Assembly (NCBI GenBank): GCA_040754375.1
Contig: JBFMCT010000032.1
Location: 2,068-39,444 of the forward strand
DNA length: 37,377 nucleotides
Reading direction: 5' to 3'
Source of the DNA: Actinomycetota bacterium
GTDB taxonomy: Bacteria; Actinomycetota; Acidimicrobiia; Acidimicrobiales; AC-14
The position numbers and the translations under genes were made by a program. Below are positions 31,119-37,377 of this stretch, in pieces. How positions within the stretch are numbered: position 1 is the stretch's first letter; each line of letters starts with the position of its first letter. Under the pieces are notes generated by a model, which was given only the letters and a program-made list of their open reading frames with translations, did not search any database and was not told where the DNA came from.

Positions 31119-31487
31119 CTATGCTGCGTAGACCCAAACGATGAACATGGTGAAGCCACCGAACAACATCAAGGCACCTCCAAGGACAGGGACGGGATCG
31201 ATTGGGGTATGGAATCCGGCCCACATGGCGTAGAGGCCGCCAGCTATCAGTCCAACAGCAAGGCCAAACAGATAGATCTTCTTCCCGAAGTTCGTCAGTT
31301 TTAGAATGCTGTCTGCATTCTTTATCATCCCTCGTCCTGAGGTGATCAAGCAACCTACTCCCAGGAGGCCAGTCACAACAACTGCGGGGAGGGGGTGCTG
31401 ACGAGCAACCCCTGCCGTAGCAGCTGAAACCAAGACAACACCGCCGACAACACTAAGCACCAGAAGGCGGAACTCACTTGCTGACAT
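31119..31487 (-). CDS. four-helix membrane protein in an A+T-richer island
   Basis: The 122-residue protein starts at ATG 31487 with GAGGG a few bases upstream. Four hydrophobic helices are clear: LLVLSVVGGVVLVSAATAGVA, LPAVVVTGLLGVGCLITSG, IYLFGLAVGLIAGGLYAMWAGF and LGGALMLFGGFTMFIVWVYAA. The second loop has basic residues (GRGMIKNADSILKLTNFGKKIY). The DNA is much less G+C-rich than the core genome. I recognise no family. It lies downstream, in the same direction, of an Rhs fragment. The two other Rhs pieces in this window are also followed by small membrane proteins, so an immunity-like role is possible but unproven. Confidence 0.65.
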   Translation of the reverse strand: MSASEFRLLVLSVVGGVVLVSAATAGVARQHPLPAVVVTGLLGVGCLITSGRGMIKNADSILKLTNFGKKIYLFGLAVGLIAGGLYAMWAGFHTPIDPVPVLGGALMLFGGFTMFIVWVYAA

Positions 31488-31839
31488 TGTCCCTCATCGA
31501 AACGTGAGTACGGATGGTCCAGTGAAGTCGACATCGTTCAGAGCTCCCCATGCACCAAACAAGCACGCACCAGCGACGCTAGCCGCGATCGACCCAGCGG
31601 GTGACCATCGTCCTCGAGCTGCCCGCTTGGGACCACACCAACGGGATGACTGCCATCCATGCGGTGGTCGACGTGCTGGGCCGTCTCGACCGGGACGGGC
31701 TACGCCCCTTATCGCACGACCATCGACGTCGCCGAACTACCGACAACCTGAGCACCGGCGGCGACAACGCCAGGACCCGCGGCGACACCTTGAGCATCAA
31801 CCGTCCCGGACGAGAGTGTCGCCGCTGTCCTCAACCTGA
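31488..31839. other. 352-bp stretch without a recognisable gene
   Basis: It contains short open frames in both directions but none with a family resemblance, a good ribosome site, or codon use I would trust. It lies between the four-helix gene and the Rhs fragment and probably holds remnants of rearranged DNA. Confidence 0.4.
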
Positions 31840-31841
31840 AC

Positions 31842-32250
31842 GTCGGGCAACAGGGGGGCACGAGCCGTTGGGCGACGGGCCGGTGAAGCACGACGAGGGG
31901 GCGGGGCCGAAGGTGGCCGAGGGCCGCCCGGCGTGGTCGTAGTGCATGGCCGTCACCCGCCCGGCGGCGTCGGTGCTCAGGGCCAGGCGGTCCCCGCTGC
32001 CCCAGGTGTAGGAGGTGCTGTGCCCGGTGGCGTCGGTGCCCGACAGGGCCCGCCCGAAGGTGTCCATGGTCACCCGCCGGGCCCAACCGGGGGCCGAGGT
32101 GACCCCCGCCACCTGCACCCGGGCCTCGGTGGGCGAGGGGTGCTCGTAGTGGTGGGCGGGCCGGGGCGCCCCCTCGGCGGGGGCGGCCAGGGTGACCGAG
32201 GAGGGCCGGCCCCCGTCGTAGGCGATGTCGGTGCGGTCCTGGGGCCCGGC
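31842..32250 (-). pseudogene. Rhs/YD-repeat gene fragment
   Basis: The minus-strand translation reads DRTDIAYDGGRPSSVTL, then RRVTMDTFGRALSGTDATGHSTSYTWGSGDRLALSTDAAGRVTAMHYDHAGRPSATFGPAPSSCFTG and ends NGSCPPVA. These are typical Tyr-Asp (YD) repeats of the Rhs shell, and the last part resembles the segment that precedes a later domain in actinobacterial Rhs proteins. Homology stops abruptly at both ends: on the right it runs into IS66 sequence near 32250-32300, on the left it hits a stop just after the PPVA. No start codon or ribosome site belongs to it. It is therefore a dead middle fragment of a larger gene. Confidence 0.8.
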
Positions 32251-32289
32251 CATGGGTCCTGGTCCGCACTGCAGGGTTCGTACACCAGG

Positions 32290-32824
32290 TTGACATTCCC
32301 ACCCGCGCCTCGTCGGGGAACGGCGCCCGGGTGACGTGGCCGCACGAGCAGCGGCAGGCGTGGGAGCGGTGCTCGGTGACCACCGGGCGGACCTCGAGCA
32401 GCTCGATCGCCTGGCGGGCCGAGAACTCGCTCGGCGAGCCGTCCCCGAGCTCGGCCCCGCAATCTTCGCAGCGCTGCGGCCGGTGGTCGACGACCTCGTC
32501 GGGCTTCGGTGACATCTCCAGGCCCTTGCCCCTGGCGCCCCGCTGCTTGCCCCGTCGGCGCTTTGCCCCGCCACTGCCGGCCTCTGCCCGTCGCGCGCGC
32601 TTCTCGGCCTGGCGCTGGCGCTCGGCGGCGGAGTCCCGCGACGAAGGCTTCCCCGAGTTCCCCGAGTTCTGCCCCAACTGCCGTCGCAGCTCGGCTACGA
32701 GCGCCTCGAGCCGCTCGATCGCCTGGCGCTGGGAATCGATCAGCTCCGCCTGCTGGGCGACGACCGCCTCCAGGTCGGCGATGCGCCGCTCGTGCTCGGA
32801 GGCCGAGGGCGCGTCGTGTGCCAT
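32290..32824 (-). pseudogene. tnpC: truncated IS66-family transposase (tnpC, N-terminal part)
   Basis: From ATG 32824 the protein reads MAHDAPSASEHERRIADLEAVVAQQ, a leucine-zipper-like N-terminus, then the conserved LRRQLGQNSGNSGKPSSRDS, a basic Arg/Lys segment, and an IS66 zinc finger (CEDCGAEL ... CRCSCGHVT). It stops matching at PFPDEA, where the catalytic domain should begin, and the DNA then turns into an Rhs fragment. So the DDE core is missing and the gene is inactive. ISBst12-like members of IS66 encode only TnpC, so the absence of tnpA and tnpB upstream need not be a loss. Confidence 0.85.
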
Positions 32825-32859
32825 GTACACACTCTCGCGACCACCCCTCTTGTCTCCTG

Positions 32860-32971: not shown

Positions 32972-33172
32972 TCACCAGCGATTCAAGAAGCGGTCAAGTG
33001 CGAGTAGGATCGCGCACACCGTAGCCAGTAGGATGATGGCAAGGAAAAACTCCAATACAGACAGGCCGCGCCAGATAGCACGCAAGACAGTTACGCCAAG
33101 GACAAATAGCAGGAACACATTACGGTTCCTTGTAGATGCGCGTGGCGAATCTCGATTGTCGGTATTAGACAC
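32972..33172 (-). CDS. small two-helix membrane protein behind Rhs tip 1, candidate immunity protein
   Basis: The 66-residue protein starts at GTG 33172 with AAAGG 6 nt upstream. A polar N-terminus (MSNTDNRDSPRASTRNRN) is followed by two hydrophobic segments, VFLLFVLGVTVLRAIW and VLEFFLAIILLATVCAILLAL, and a short basic end (DRFLNRW). The DNA is A+T-rich relative to the core. It lies 295 nt after the stop of the Rhs protein at 33468, in the same orientation. Position, size and composition fit an immunity protein for the Rhs tip, but there is no recognised domain. Confidence 0.6.
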   Translation of the reverse strand: MSNTDNRDSPRASTRNRNVFLLFVLGVTVLRAIWRGLSVLEFFLAIILLATVCAILLALDRFLNRW

Positions 33173-33467: not shown

Positions 33468-35696
33468 CTAGTACCCAATTGCAGCACAGGCAGCGTCGAG
33501 CGCAGTAATCGCCACAGTTGCATAAGGTACAACTGTTGCTACTCGCCCGCCGACTGCCGTCGCTCCTTTGTGGGTAAGATCGCCAACAATGTACGCCTCA
33601 AGCGCCTGGTCAAAGGCCTTGGTAGGATCAGTGCTAGTCACTGAACGCGCGAAGCCACCTAGGCTAAAGAACTGCACTACGTTGCGAAACGGCTTGGGGC
33701 ATTCGATGCGGCTAATGTGAGGCTCATCATAGCGACGGCCTTTACCAACGAAGTCGAAGTAGATAGAGCTGTCGTCGTTAGCCTTTGCTGTCCGGTAGTG
33801 GAGACATTCCTCACCGTAGAAGATGTCGTTCGGTGCGTTGTAGCCGCAGTGGGCCTCCAGGTCGGGGAGGGGTTCCTTGCTCTTCTTCTTGGTCCCCGTC
33901 AGGTCCAAGCCGTTCACGGGGTCGCCGCACACGTAGTCGTAGTCGTTGCAGGAGCCGCCCTCGATGGGGTCGACGGACAGGAAGCGGCCCAGGGAGGGGG
34001 CGTAGGGGCGGGCGCCCATCTGCACGATGGTGGTTGCCAGGCCGTGGTCGGTGGGGCGCTGGTGGGAGCCCAGCCAGCCGTAGTCGTAGTCCCCGTCGGA
34101 GTTGTCGGGCGGGGGGCCGGTGCCGTCGGGGGTGTAGGCGTGCTTGGTGGTGCCCACCAGCACGGGCAGCCCGGCCAGCGACCCGGCGTAGGTGGCGGTG
34201 GCTGCCGTGTGGCCCCCCACGTCGGGGTAGCTCCACACGTCGGTGACCGCCAGTGGGGGTGTGACCACGAAGCGCCGGGTGAGCACCGCCCCGCCGGCCA
34301 GGGCCACGGTGGCCTCGTAGGGGGCACTCTGGCTGTCGAGCGTGGCCGAGGGGCTGTCACCCGGGCCCCGGTGGGCGTAGCGCACGGTGCCCGAGGCGTC
34401 GGTGCGGGCCACCACCCGCCCGGTGGCGTCGCGGGCATAGGTGACGGTGGCCGGGCCCTCGGTGGTGGCCACGTGGCGGCCGGCCCCGTCGAAGGACAGG
34501 GCGGCCGCCCCCAGCATGGTGGTGTTGCCGTGGTCGTCGTAGGCGATGGCCCCCAGGCTAGGCGAGGCCCCGACCAGGCGGTCGGCGTGGTCGTGGCAGA
34601 AGGTGGTGGTGGTGCCGTTGTCGGTCACCGACGTGCGGTTGGAGTTGAGCCCCGCCCCCGGGGCCGGCCCGCAGCCCCCGGCGGGGGCGTAACCGTAGGT
34701 GAGGTGGTGGCCGGGCACGTGGGCCTCCACCAGCCTCCCGGCGCCGTCATAGGAGAAGTTCGGGCCCCCGGGATGGGCGTCGGTGCCGTCGATGACCTGG
34801 TCCATTACCCGGCCCGACTGCGAGCGGGTGACCGACGAGGACGAGAACCCGGCCTCGGTGGCCAGGTCCCAGGCCAGCGAGGCCAGCCGCCCGGCGCTGT
34901 CACGCGTGAGCGAGGCCAGCGACGAGCCGTTGCCCGCCCCGCCCACCGCCGCCGGGTAGGAGGCCGAGGCCAGCTCGCCGGCACCGTCGTAGGACACGGT
35001 GGCGGCCGTCACGCCGTCGAGGGACTGCGAGCTCACCCTCCCGGCGGGGTCGTATGTGCTGGCCACGGTGGGCAGGCCCGGTGTGGCCACCGAGGTCACC
35101 CGGCCCCCCTGGTCGTAGGTGTAGGACGAGACCTTGGCCCACACGTCGGTGTAGGTGGCCAGCCGGCCCAGGCGGTCGAGGGCCGCGGTGACGGTGCCCG
35201 CGGGGTCGGTGACCGAGGCCACCAGCGGGCTGGCGCCCACGGCGTGGTCGTAGGTGACGGTGCGGGCCGGCTGGGCGCCGTGGGCGGGGAAAGCACGCGT
35301 CAGGGGGCGGCCCCGGTCGTCGTAGGTGGTGCACGCCCACGGGCCGGTGCCCACCCGGGTGGCCACCGGGCGGCCCATGGCGTCGTGGACGACCTCGGTC
35401 ACCCTCGCGACCTCGGGGCCGGGGCCGTCGGGGTCGGGGCCGGTGGAGCGGCGCACCATCCCCCCCTGGTTGGCGCTGGCCCCGCCGGGGCAGGGGTTGG
35501 CGACCACCTCGGTGGGGCCGTAGTGCTCGTAGGTGGTGGTGGCCCCCGAGGGGAGCGTGCGGGCCGTGCGCCGGAAGAAGGCCCCCGGGCCGGCGGGCTC
35601 GTAGGAGGTGGCGGTGGTGAGGGCCAGGCCCCCGGGATCTGCGGTCACGGCCGTGGGCAGGCCCAGGTGGGCGTGGGCGTAGGAGGTGGCCGTCAC
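33468..35696 (-). CDS. Rhs/YD-repeat protein, 5'-truncated, with core and variable tip 1
   Basis: The frame encodes 742 residues of Rhs shell: many YD units (GRPVATRVG, YDDRGRPLTRAF, LDRLGRLATYTD, YDGAGRLVEAH, YDDHGNTTML, YARDATGRVVART) and the Rhs core (MGARPYAPSLGRFLSVDPIEGGSCNDYDYVCGDPVNGLDLTGT). After the core boundary (33891) comes a 140-residue tip starting KKKSKEPLPDLEAHCGYN, containing YFDFVGKGRRYDEPHISRIECPKPF and a hydrophobic end. The tip matches no toxin family I know. Homology continues upstream of the start codon to about 35755 (YGLPTTST), where an in-frame TGA (35757-35759) meets foreign DNA. No signal or ribosome site remains, so this is probably a silent C-terminal cassette. 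Confidence 0.85.
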   Translation of the reverse strand: MTATSYAHAHLGLPTAVTADPGGLALTTATSYEPAGPGAFFRRTARTLPSGATTTYEHYGPTEVVANPCPGGASANQGGMVRRSTGPDPDGPGPEVARVTEVVHDAMGRPVATRVGTGPWACTTYDDRGRPLTRAFPAHGAQPARTVTYDHAVGASPLVASVTDPAGTVTAALDRLGRLATYTDVWAKVSSYTYDQGGRVTSVATPGLPTVASTYDPAGRVSSQSLDGVTAATVSYDGAGELASASYPAAVGGAGNGSSLASLTRDSAGRLASLAWDLATEAGFSSSSVTRSQSGRVMDQVIDGTDAHPGGPNFSYDGAGRLVEAHVPGHHLTYGYAPAGGCGPAPGAGLNSNRTSVTDNGTTTTFCHDHADRLVGASPSLGAIAYDDHGNTTMLGAAALSFDGAGRHVATTEGPATVTYARDATGRVVARTDASGTVRYAHRGPGDSPSATLDSQSAPYEATVALAGGAVLTRRFVVTPPLAVTDVWSYPDVGGHTAATATYAGSLAGLPVLVGTTKHAYTPDGTGPPPDNSDGDYDYGWLGSHQRPTDHGLATTIVQMGARPYAPSLGRFLSVDPIEGGSCNDYDYVCGDPVNGLDLTGTKKKSKEPLPDLEAHCGYNAPNDIFYGEECLHYRTAKANDDSSIYFDFVGKGRRYDEPHISRIECPKPFRNVVQFFSLGGFARSVTSTDPTKAFDQALEAYIVGDLTHKGATAVGGRVATVVPYATVAITALDAACAAIGY

Positions 35697-35990: not shown

Positions 35991-36440
35991 GACGGGATAC
36001 GCCGCTGGTGGCAGGCCATGGGCCGGGACCGCTACCAGGAGGCCACCACCTTGCTGGTGACCGCCACCGCCGATGCCGGCGGATCGAACGGCTACCGCAA
36101 CAAGCTCTGGAAGGTCGAACTGGCCGAGCTGGCCGCCGAGACGGGGCTCACGATCACGGTGTGCCACTACCCGCCGGGCACGTCGAAGTGGAACAAGGTG
36201 GAGCACCGGATGTTCAGCTTCATCACCAAGAACTGGCGGGGCAAGCCCCTCACGTCCTACCAGGTGATCGTCGAGCTGGCCGCCGGCACCACCACCGAGA
36301 CAGGCCTGCGGATCCTCGCCGATTGGGACCAGGGCCACTACCCGAAAAGGACCGAGATCAGCGACGACACGATGGCGGCGCTTCCCCTCATCGGCCACGA
36401 CTGGCATGCCGAATAGAACTACGACCTCGCACCGCCGACA
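35991..36440 (+). pseudogene. broken ISAzo13-family transposase (C-terminal part)
   Basis: The frame reads DGIRRWWQAMGRDRYQEATTLLVTATADAGGSNGYRNKLWKVELAELAAETGLTITVCHYPPGTSKWNKVEHRMFSFITKNWRGKPL, ending near LPLIGHDWHAE. This carries the second Asp (ATADAGGSNG) and the Glu (WNKVEHR) of the DDE triad; the first Asp and N-terminal half are absent. After HAE the codon is TAG (36414-36416) where family members have Trp (HGEWNYTIAP), and in-frame NYDLAP follows, so a TGG-to-TAG nonsense change ends the protein early. It lies on the strand opposite to the Rhs genes and separates the two Rhs cassettes. Confidence 0.85.
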
Positions 36441-36485: not shown

Positions 36486-36680
36486 TTAACGATCTCGAGT
36501 AAAATAGAACCAACACGCCGTACTAGCTAAGAGCAGAAACCAGGCCGCCAATCCTGGATAGCTTAGACGGTCATAACCACTGAGAAGCCCCGCGATCAAG
36601 ACACCAAATGACCATGCCATCGTCCATAAGAAGATGACGGCCTTGTCACGACGGGTAGGCTCATCCGGTGGTCCTCTCAT
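36486..36680 (-). CDS. small two-helix membrane protein behind Rhs tip 2, candidate immunity protein
   Basis: The 64-residue protein starts at ATG 36680, 8 nt after the Rhs stop, with AGGAG (36686-36690) overlapping that stop codon and 5 nt from the ATG. It reads MRGPPDEPTRRDKA, then VIFLWTMAWSFGVLIAGLLSG and YPGLAAWFLLLASTACWFYF with a charged end (TRDR). The ribosome site is the best in this region, and tight coupling to the tip gene strongly suggests that the two proteins work together. Composition is A+T-richer than the Rhs core. An immunity function is inferred from position; no family is recognised. Confidence 0.72.
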   Translation of the reverse strand: MRGPPDEPTRRDKAVIFLWTMAWSFGVLIAGLLSGYDRLSYPGLAAWFLLLASTACWFYFTRDR

Positions 36681-36688
36681 GACTTCTC

Positions 36689-37377
36689 CTAGTTGCACGG
36701 GATCAACGAGGTGACTACGGAGGCAGTCACTCCGAGGCCCTTTGCCGCACCAGCTATAGGGCTGTCCGCAAAGTGGTAAATCGCCGCTGTGGCGGTACTT
36801 GAGAAGCTTGATGCGGTACCCCCCGTCGCCACGAAGGCCGTAGAGCACGCCGGGTCGACCAAGTTGCCAGCGGTTGAGACCACGACCGGAACTGCTATTG
36901 CTGCCGCTGCAGGGGCACCTACCGCAGGCAGTGCCACAGCGGCTGCAGCGGCTACGACCCGCAGCGTGTCGTCTGCGTATCGTTCCGCGTAGACCTTCTC
37001 GGCCCGTGCGATCGGGTTGGTGTTCTCGACTGTGCAGTTGCACTCGTAGCTCTCCCGGTCCTGGCGCTTGAGGTCCCCGGCGGTGGCGTAGTCGACGACC
37101 GCCCGGACGGCGGCGCCGGCACAGTGGTGGGGGTGGCGCCACGAGCAGTGCGTCCCCGTCAGGTCCAAGCCGTTCACCGGGTCGCCGCAGACGTAGTCGT
37201 AGTCGTTGCAGGAGCCGGCTTCTATGGGGTCGACGGACAGGAAGCGGCCGAGGGAGGGGGCGTAGGGGCGGGCGCCCATCTGCACGATGGTGGTTGCCAG
37301 GCCGTGGTCGGTGGGGCGCTGGTGGGAGCCCAGCCAGCCGTAGTCGTAGTCCCCGTCGGAGTTGTCGGGCGGGGGGC
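36689..37377 (-). CDS. Rhs/YD-repeat protein, C-terminal end with variable tip 2 (runs off the right edge)
   Basis: The window edge cuts this gene. Its visible part begins in the Rhs core (GARPYAPSLGRFLSVDPIEAGSCNDYDYVCGDPVNGLDLTGT) and changes at 37151 to a 153-residue tip. The tip starts HCSWRHPHHCAGAAVRAVVDYATAGDL, has a Cys pair (YECNCTVEN), and then Ala/Val-rich hydrophobic stretches (LRVVAAAAAVALPAVGAPAAAAIAVPVVVSTAGNLV and later GTASSFSSTATAAIYHF), ending VTSLIPCN. The hydrophobic runs could insert in a membrane, so a pore-forming activity is possible, but no known toxin motif is seen. It appears intact at its 3' end and is coupled to the small membrane-protein gene. Confidence 0.85.
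   Translation of the reverse strand, partial: PPPDNSDGDYDYGWLGSHQRPTDHGLATTIVQMGARPYAPSLGRFLSVDPIEAGSCNDYDYVCGDPVNGLDLTGTHCSWRHPHHCAGAAVRAVVDYATAGDLKRQDRESYECNCTVENTNPIARAEKVYAERYADDTLRVVAAAAAVALPAVGAPAAAAIAVPVVVSTAGNLVDPACSTAFVATGGTASSFSSTATAAIYHFADSPIAGAAKGLGVTASVVTSLIPCN

Follow-up and report, generated by a model that had tools for sequence, protein, structure and literature searches.

The end of an Rhs gene and the small gene behind it

The end of the window, by which we mean the whole stretch of 37,377 nt that was analysed, raises the question of whether the hydrophobic tip of an Rhs protein and the small gene behind it form a toxin and its immunity protein, as the first-pass annotation had proposed. 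We re-read the minus strand and found that the frame entering from the window end runs through GRFLSVDPIEAGSCNDYDYVCGDPVNGLDLTGT into a 153-residue tip (36692-37150), which is closed by a stop codon at 36689-36691. The match to the NCBIfam profile Rhs_assc_core (TIGR03696) ended at DLTG with 46.9 bits (cut-off 32.5), so the annotated core boundary was confirmed, and the final in-frame 225 nt of the window are the C-terminal end of an Rhs core. The small gene was also as described: an ORF of 64 residues starts with an ATG at 36680, 8 nt past the tip stop, its AGGAG overlaps the TAG of that stop, and its own stop codon ends at 36486. AlphaFold2, applied to four related small proteins, predicted the two helices of the window protein at residues 10-33 and 41-63 (mean pLDDT 73.4). 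Both the tip and the small ORF are open. Of 4000 dinucleotide-shuffled sequences, 684 had an ORF of 60 aa or more beginning where the small ORF begins, and in 22 such an ORF contained a strongly hydrophobic segment. The window ends where contig 32 of the source genome ends; the Rhs gene therefore runs off the contig and its N-terminal part could not be read.

The core retains both aspartates with 18 residues between them, DPIE-X18-DLTG as compared with DPXG-X18-DPXG; read in this way, the first motif departs from the pattern at its G and the second at its P. This aspartate pair is reported to be the self-cleaving protease of Rhs plugs that releases the C-terminus (PMC10684867). In a weak PDB alignment (8h8a, E 0.098) the second aspartate was paired with the D of a DPTG motif, at which the 8h8a chain stops; the 8h8b chain has an A at this position and continues, and 8h8b is presumably an uncleaved mutant. 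A relative, L104, begins with what reads by eye as a Sec-like signal sequence, the basis for taking the window Rhs protein to be probably exported.

A second pair, on contig 13 of the same genome (L010, here C13), allowed us to look inside the tip. It consists of a 154-residue tip, whose Rhs core is frameshifted upstream of it, and a 76-residue two-helix protein that overlaps the tip stop by one base. The first 39 residues of the two tips are identical (39/39) and their genes differ there by four codon changes, all of them synonymous, whereas past residue 39 only 53 of 113 aligned residues are identical (47%); for the small proteins the figure is 17 of 61 (28%). GC3 stood at 0.96 for the core fragment and 0.97 for the linker, then fell to 0.66 over the remainder of the tip and to 0.50 in the small gene. 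The drop of both measures at residues 39/40 places the start of the diverging unit at about residue 40 (37033) and not at DLTGT, and divides the tip into a conserved linker of 39 residues and a variable hydrophobic module (Table 1). The idea of a polymorphic-toxin tip was thus retained, but as two modules and not as a single unit; the Ala/Val-rich stretches that had been noted lie in the variable module, from residue 40 on, while the Cys-x-Cys noted with them (residues 37-39) sits in the linker. The linker evolves with the core, and the hydrophobic module diverges together with the small gene. It is possible that the linker is a docking or entry segment.

Alanine, glycine and serine make up 41-55% of four C-terminal modules, and the window and C13 tips have polar residues in common, ENTNP and YADDT among them. 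When the residues of the tip were shuffled at constant composition, 73 of 1000 shuffles matched its strongest hydrophobic window. The structure model of the tip is helical, with a mean pLDDT of 38.7 at which the fold is unusable.

Table 1. Features of the two Rhs ends in the window
Feature	Position	Strand	Basis or remarks
Rhs core end	37151..37375	-	TIGR03696 above cut-off; Asp pair DPIE-X18-DLTG; open to contig end
Tip linker, 39 residues (HCSWRHPHHC...ECNC)	37034..37150	-	Identity to contig-13 copy; GC3
Variable Ala/Gly-rich hydrophobic module, 114 residues	36692..37033	-	Divergence from contig 13; GC3; hydrophobic segments
Two-helix hairpin protein, 64 residues, putative immunity protein	36486..36680	-	Predicted helices; family with C13, C56a, C56b
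Second Rhs tip, 140 residues	33468..33890	-	Linker 33720-33890 and variable C-terminus
Two-helix ORF, 66 residues, GTG start	32972..33172	-	295 nt behind the second tip

Further pairs in the source genome

The layout of a toxin tip with an immunity gene gained support from its recurrence. The small proteins of the window and of contig 13 are related at a score that none of 2000 shuffles reached, and a profile built from these two alone found a third on contig 56 (E 5.1e-4), a contig that also carries an Rhs core. Contig 56 holds two tip remnants, which overlap their hairpin ORFs by 32 nt and 1 nt; the second remnant and its hairpin gene (L060:2152-2648) stand just behind nuoJ/nuoK-like genes (assigned by eye), away from a complete Rhs gene. 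Contig 2 carries two further, probable pairs, in which 22 and 24 nt separate the tip from the small gene; one of these tips (C2a) is frameshifted. Related small ORFs thus hold the same position behind other tips or tip remnants of the genome, and the search for the pair behind other Rhs cores, which had been suggested as a check, was positive there. Neither of the refuting results named beforehand was seen: the tip did not prove to be tied throughout to this core in the absence of a small partner gene, nor did it match a structural, non-toxin domain.

In leave-one-out profiles no more than 1 of 2000 shuffles reached the score of any of the small proteins of the window, C13, C56a and C56b, and by sequence these four securely form one family. 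For the contig-2 proteins C2a and C2b the numbers were 259 and 10 of 2000, and their membership is probable only. Among the tips, those of the window, C13 and C56b held in the same procedure (0, 0 and 3 of 2000 shuffles) and those of C56a and C2b failed (90 and 245 of 2000), although in a pairwise comparison the score of the C56a and C13 tips was reached by none of 1000 shuffles. All six small proteins, of 64-84 residues, have two hydrophobic segments, and in 6 of 6 the tails are more basic than the loop, as befits a hairpin with both ends inside. The loop has at most one K/R, fewer than in either tail except in C2a, whose N-tail has two. The contig-13 protein and both contig-2 proteins (L010:6246-6473, L012:2393-2632 and L061:2903-3121) carry in front of the hairpin an N-terminal C-x2-C...H-x3-C, possibly a small zinc site, that is absent from the window protein.

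Other Rhs ends of the genome were recorded alongside. On contig 29 two of them (L037 and L038) lie 3 kb apart and share the start of the tip, after which they differ. Two hydrophobic Rhs tips on another core type (L029 and L030, contigs 37 and 90) are followed by proteins of 77 and 156 residues with two hydrophobic segments each.

Database searches and the tips of the taxonomic family

That both parts of the pair would be undescribed, as had been proposed, was borne out in the databases searched: the small protein had no match in Pfam, NCBIfam or PADLOC, and the window tip had nothing credible there. Pfam matches below cut-off were set aside (DUF6732 for the window tip, DUF3040, FtsX), as was the match of the C13 tip to a WDR90 propeller (19.1 bits, cut-off 50). 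A search of the PDB with the window tip up to E 10 returned a single chitinase (E 1), and profile searches of the PDB were not credible, with Phi6 P5 best for the tips (E 0.08) and a light-harvesting subunit for the small proteins (E 0.77). Among the open-licence papers listed by literature searches, no title or abstract start described these families.

No homologue outside the source genome was accepted from 395 genomes of the class, 396 of the phylum, sets of 99 and 148 relatives, plasmids and viral contigs; the class, phylum and relative samples overlap. At E <= 0.01 the tip was matched in 11 of the 395 class genomes, its own included. The ten others were rejected as weak (0.0005-0.009) and three of them contain stop codons; a regular expression for the Rhs core found none within flanks of about 1.5 kb. 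In the phylum sample and among the 99 relatives the only match was the source genome itself (1/396 and 1/99). It was joined among the 148 relatives by four others (5/148), which were rejected at E 0.003-0.009 with no Rhs motif alongside. The small proteins matched in seven class genomes (7/395, own included), and the six that were not the source genome (E 0.002-0.004) likewise lacked an Rhs motif alongside and were not retained. Plasmids gave no match to the tip and one to the small protein, at E 0.4. Exact linker peptides, a query that could miss relatives of the toxin module, found nothing in viral contigs and one locus in a scan of genome contigs, the Sporichthyaceae Rhs L042, in which HCSWRHPHHC and a little more follow directly on the core before the sequence becomes different.

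We then compared the Rhs ends within the taxonomic family, where 7 of 10 genomes, the source genome included, have Rhs cores. Five of 34 cores were dropped with a tip absent, cut or open (L091, L093, L099, L101 and C56), which left 29 usable tips. Two types of linker were distinguished, an HCSW type of 39 residues and a CGYNAPND type of about 57. The second Rhs tip of the window has a linker of the latter type (57 residues), of which 41 residues of 57 are identical in L087, from another genus, while their C-termini are unlike; its C-terminus instead resembles that of L084 (0/500 shuffles). No link was seen between the two tips of the window (129/2000). The 66-residue ORF is a possible immunity protein of the second tip, and it weakly resembles the small proteins that follow L084 and C37c (7 and 6 of 1000 shuffles).

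Among 45 tip pairs tested, the C-termini of L089 and C37c matched (0/500 shuffles), the match of L087 with C37c was weaker (4/500), and L087 with L089 fell outside the pairs reached by 10 of 500 shuffles or fewer. The C37c copy is broken, since linker and C-terminus lie in different reading frames. The membrane protein that follows L089 is related both to the one that follows L087 and to the one that follows C37c (0/1000 shuffles each), as compared with 169 of 1000 for those behind L087 and C37c. The linker of L089 is unlike those of L087 and C37c. One linker with unlike C-termini, together with one C-terminus with unlike linkers, suggests that linker and toxin are exchanged separately in these tips. 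A tentative extension, which we hold to be possible, is that three tiers can be exchanged: the core, a short linker for entry, and a membrane toxin together with its hairpin. The linkers would then be entry domains that dock to a receptor, as in CDI ionophores, with Rhs as the carrier. As an observation in its own right, L087, L089 and L031 represent a separate family of tip and membrane protein that is common to several genera.

For 14 of the 29 usable tips the next protein, within -45 to +60 nt, has one or more TM-grade hydrophobic segments. Such a partner stood behind 8 of the 12 tips classed as hydrophobic and 6 of the remaining 17, a count made by eye that gives no more than a non-significant trend (p 0.14). 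Three of ten tips scanned were above Pfam cut-offs, with phospholipase A2 (L094), DUF6973 (C16) and Ntox17, so the related core type does carry recognised domains. The phospholipase A2 and DUF6973 tips are each followed by a four-TM protein, and a membrane partner is therefore no proof of a pore.

The window contains further debris around its second Rhs end. The C-terminal piece of an ISAZ013-type transposase (36018-36416, plus strand; profile positions 172-300 of 308) separates the second Rhs fragment from the small gene. IS66-type transposase pieces with weak Pfam matches near the cut-off (31709-32830, minus strand) adjoin a YD-repeat-like frame, and behind them comes an ORF of 122 residues (31119-31487, minus strand) that has four hydrophobic segments; together they are perhaps a third, broken Rhs unit.

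A proposed mechanism and its alternatives

The gene order, its recurrence, the co-divergence and the junction within the tip were observed and the hairpin was predicted, and from these we regard it as fairly likely that the locus is a polymorphic toxin-immunity module of the Rhs kind, with a tip that enters membranes and depolarises them and a hairpin that blocks this tip. The Rhs shell would be exported and would sever its own C-terminus after DLTGT. The 39-residue linker would dock or guide the released tip into its target, where the 114-residue Ala/Gly-rich module would enter the cytoplasmic membrane and dissipate its potential. In the producer membrane the 64-residue hairpin, with both ends inside, would bind the inserted module and block it, and the toxin module and hairpin gene would be exchanged and diversified as one. 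Membrane action of the putative toxin tip is what we infer from its hydrophobicity, its hairpin partner and the analogy to CDI ionophores and Tse5.

The nearest parallels are CDI ionophores and Tse5/Tsi5. The C-terminus of CDI ionophores is described as bipartite, an entry domain followed by a helical ionophore, and their CdiI as a very hydrophobic two-helix hairpin of 72-100 residues with both ends inside; the entry part is near-constant while ionophore and immunity protein diverge, the latter to about 30% identity within a group (PMC11630599). The pairs studied here share the bipartite tip, the hairpin partner and a near-constant first part of the tip, and the 28% identity of the small proteins is close to the value given in that source, but the window protein, with 64 residues, is shorter than the CdiI range (64-84 in the family here). 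The carrier is Rhs instead of CdiA, and VENN is absent from the tips examined. The Gly-x3-Gly-x3-Gly of CDI ionophores was missing from the full window and C13 tips and from C56b and present only in C2b; looser glycine-zipper matches in the tips were weak, with shuffle frequencies of 0.03 and 0.12. The CDI ionophore is reported as a five-helix bundle (PMC11630599), to be set against our low-scoring helical model.

Tse5, an Rhs pore-former of a type VI system, and Tsi5, with two predicted transmembrane regions, share with the window pair the Rhs carrier, a C-terminus devoid of enzyme motifs and a two-TM immunity protein, as far as they are described (PMC9637101, PMC10684867). The best PDB match of the window's second Rhs core was the Tse5 shell (2.5e-10; 8cp6_B, 1121 residues, shell only, without Tse5-CT), and against this chain the tips showed no likeness. 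Two-TM immunity proteins beside polymorphic-toxin tips are also listed as Imm-CdiI and Imm17, along with Tox-WTIP, a two-helix pore-forming tip (PMC3482391), and the layout here is alike; unlike Tox-WTIP and Imm17, however, the window pair lacks W-x-[ST]-I-P in the tip and W-x-W in the small protein, and the small protein has no Pfam match. Membrane-disrupting C-terminal toxins are further reported for Tme (PMC7046647) and EsxX/TelE (PMC12744356), with membrane immunity proteins for Tme (PMC7046647) and, outside the cell, for EsxX (PMC12744356). The window tip differs in having no DxxK, Tmi mostly has three to six TM helices, and Tme has another carrier (PMC7046647); EsxX/TelE have other carriers as well, and EsxX has an extended glycine zipper (PMC12744356).

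We consider it unlikely, though the foremost of the alternatives, that the tip is an enzymatic toxin working at or near the membrane, for example on lipids or lipid-linked precursors, with the hairpin protecting there and not by blocking a pore. The four-TM partners of the phospholipase A2 and DUF6973 tips and the polar residues kept between the window and C13 tips would agree with such an enzyme, but no match in Pfam or the PDB points to one, and the Ala/Gly/Ser content of the four modules with their long hydrophobic stretches is unusual in enzymes. Somewhat less likely still is that the tip and small ORF are decaying, non-working relics of a rearranged Rhs array. Transposase pieces and cut Rhs genes throughout the array, the frameshifts in the C13 core and C2a tip, the chance frequency of an ORF of this length and the truncation of the window Rhs gene by the contig end would agree with decay, but both window ORFs are open, all four codon changes in the linker are synonymous and the relatedness of the small proteins goes far beyond that of shuffled sequences. 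It is improbable that the tip is no toxin but anchors the Rhs protein in the membrane, with the small protein as its partner there or as its chaperone, which a hydrophobic C-terminus with a membrane partner could suggest. Against it stand the recognised toxin domains that take the same place on cores closely resembling this one, in its own genome and family, the sharp exchange junction with its co-diverging partner, and an aspartate pair reported in Rhs proteins to release the C-terminus (PMC10684867).

Hydrophobic tips and two-helix immunity proteins are of kinds already described (PMC3482391, PMC9637101, PMC11630599). The novelty lies in the sequence families themselves, in the way they have diversified inside a single genome and in a junction that falls within the tip. 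Under the preferred reading of a membrane-acting toxin and its hairpin, undescribed families of both would join the membrane-acting Rhs tips. Several diverged pairs in one genome, two of them with the same linker, offer a natural test of recognition between hairpin and toxin, and the position of the junction within the tip, not at the cleavage site, would make a separate Rhs entry module directly testable.
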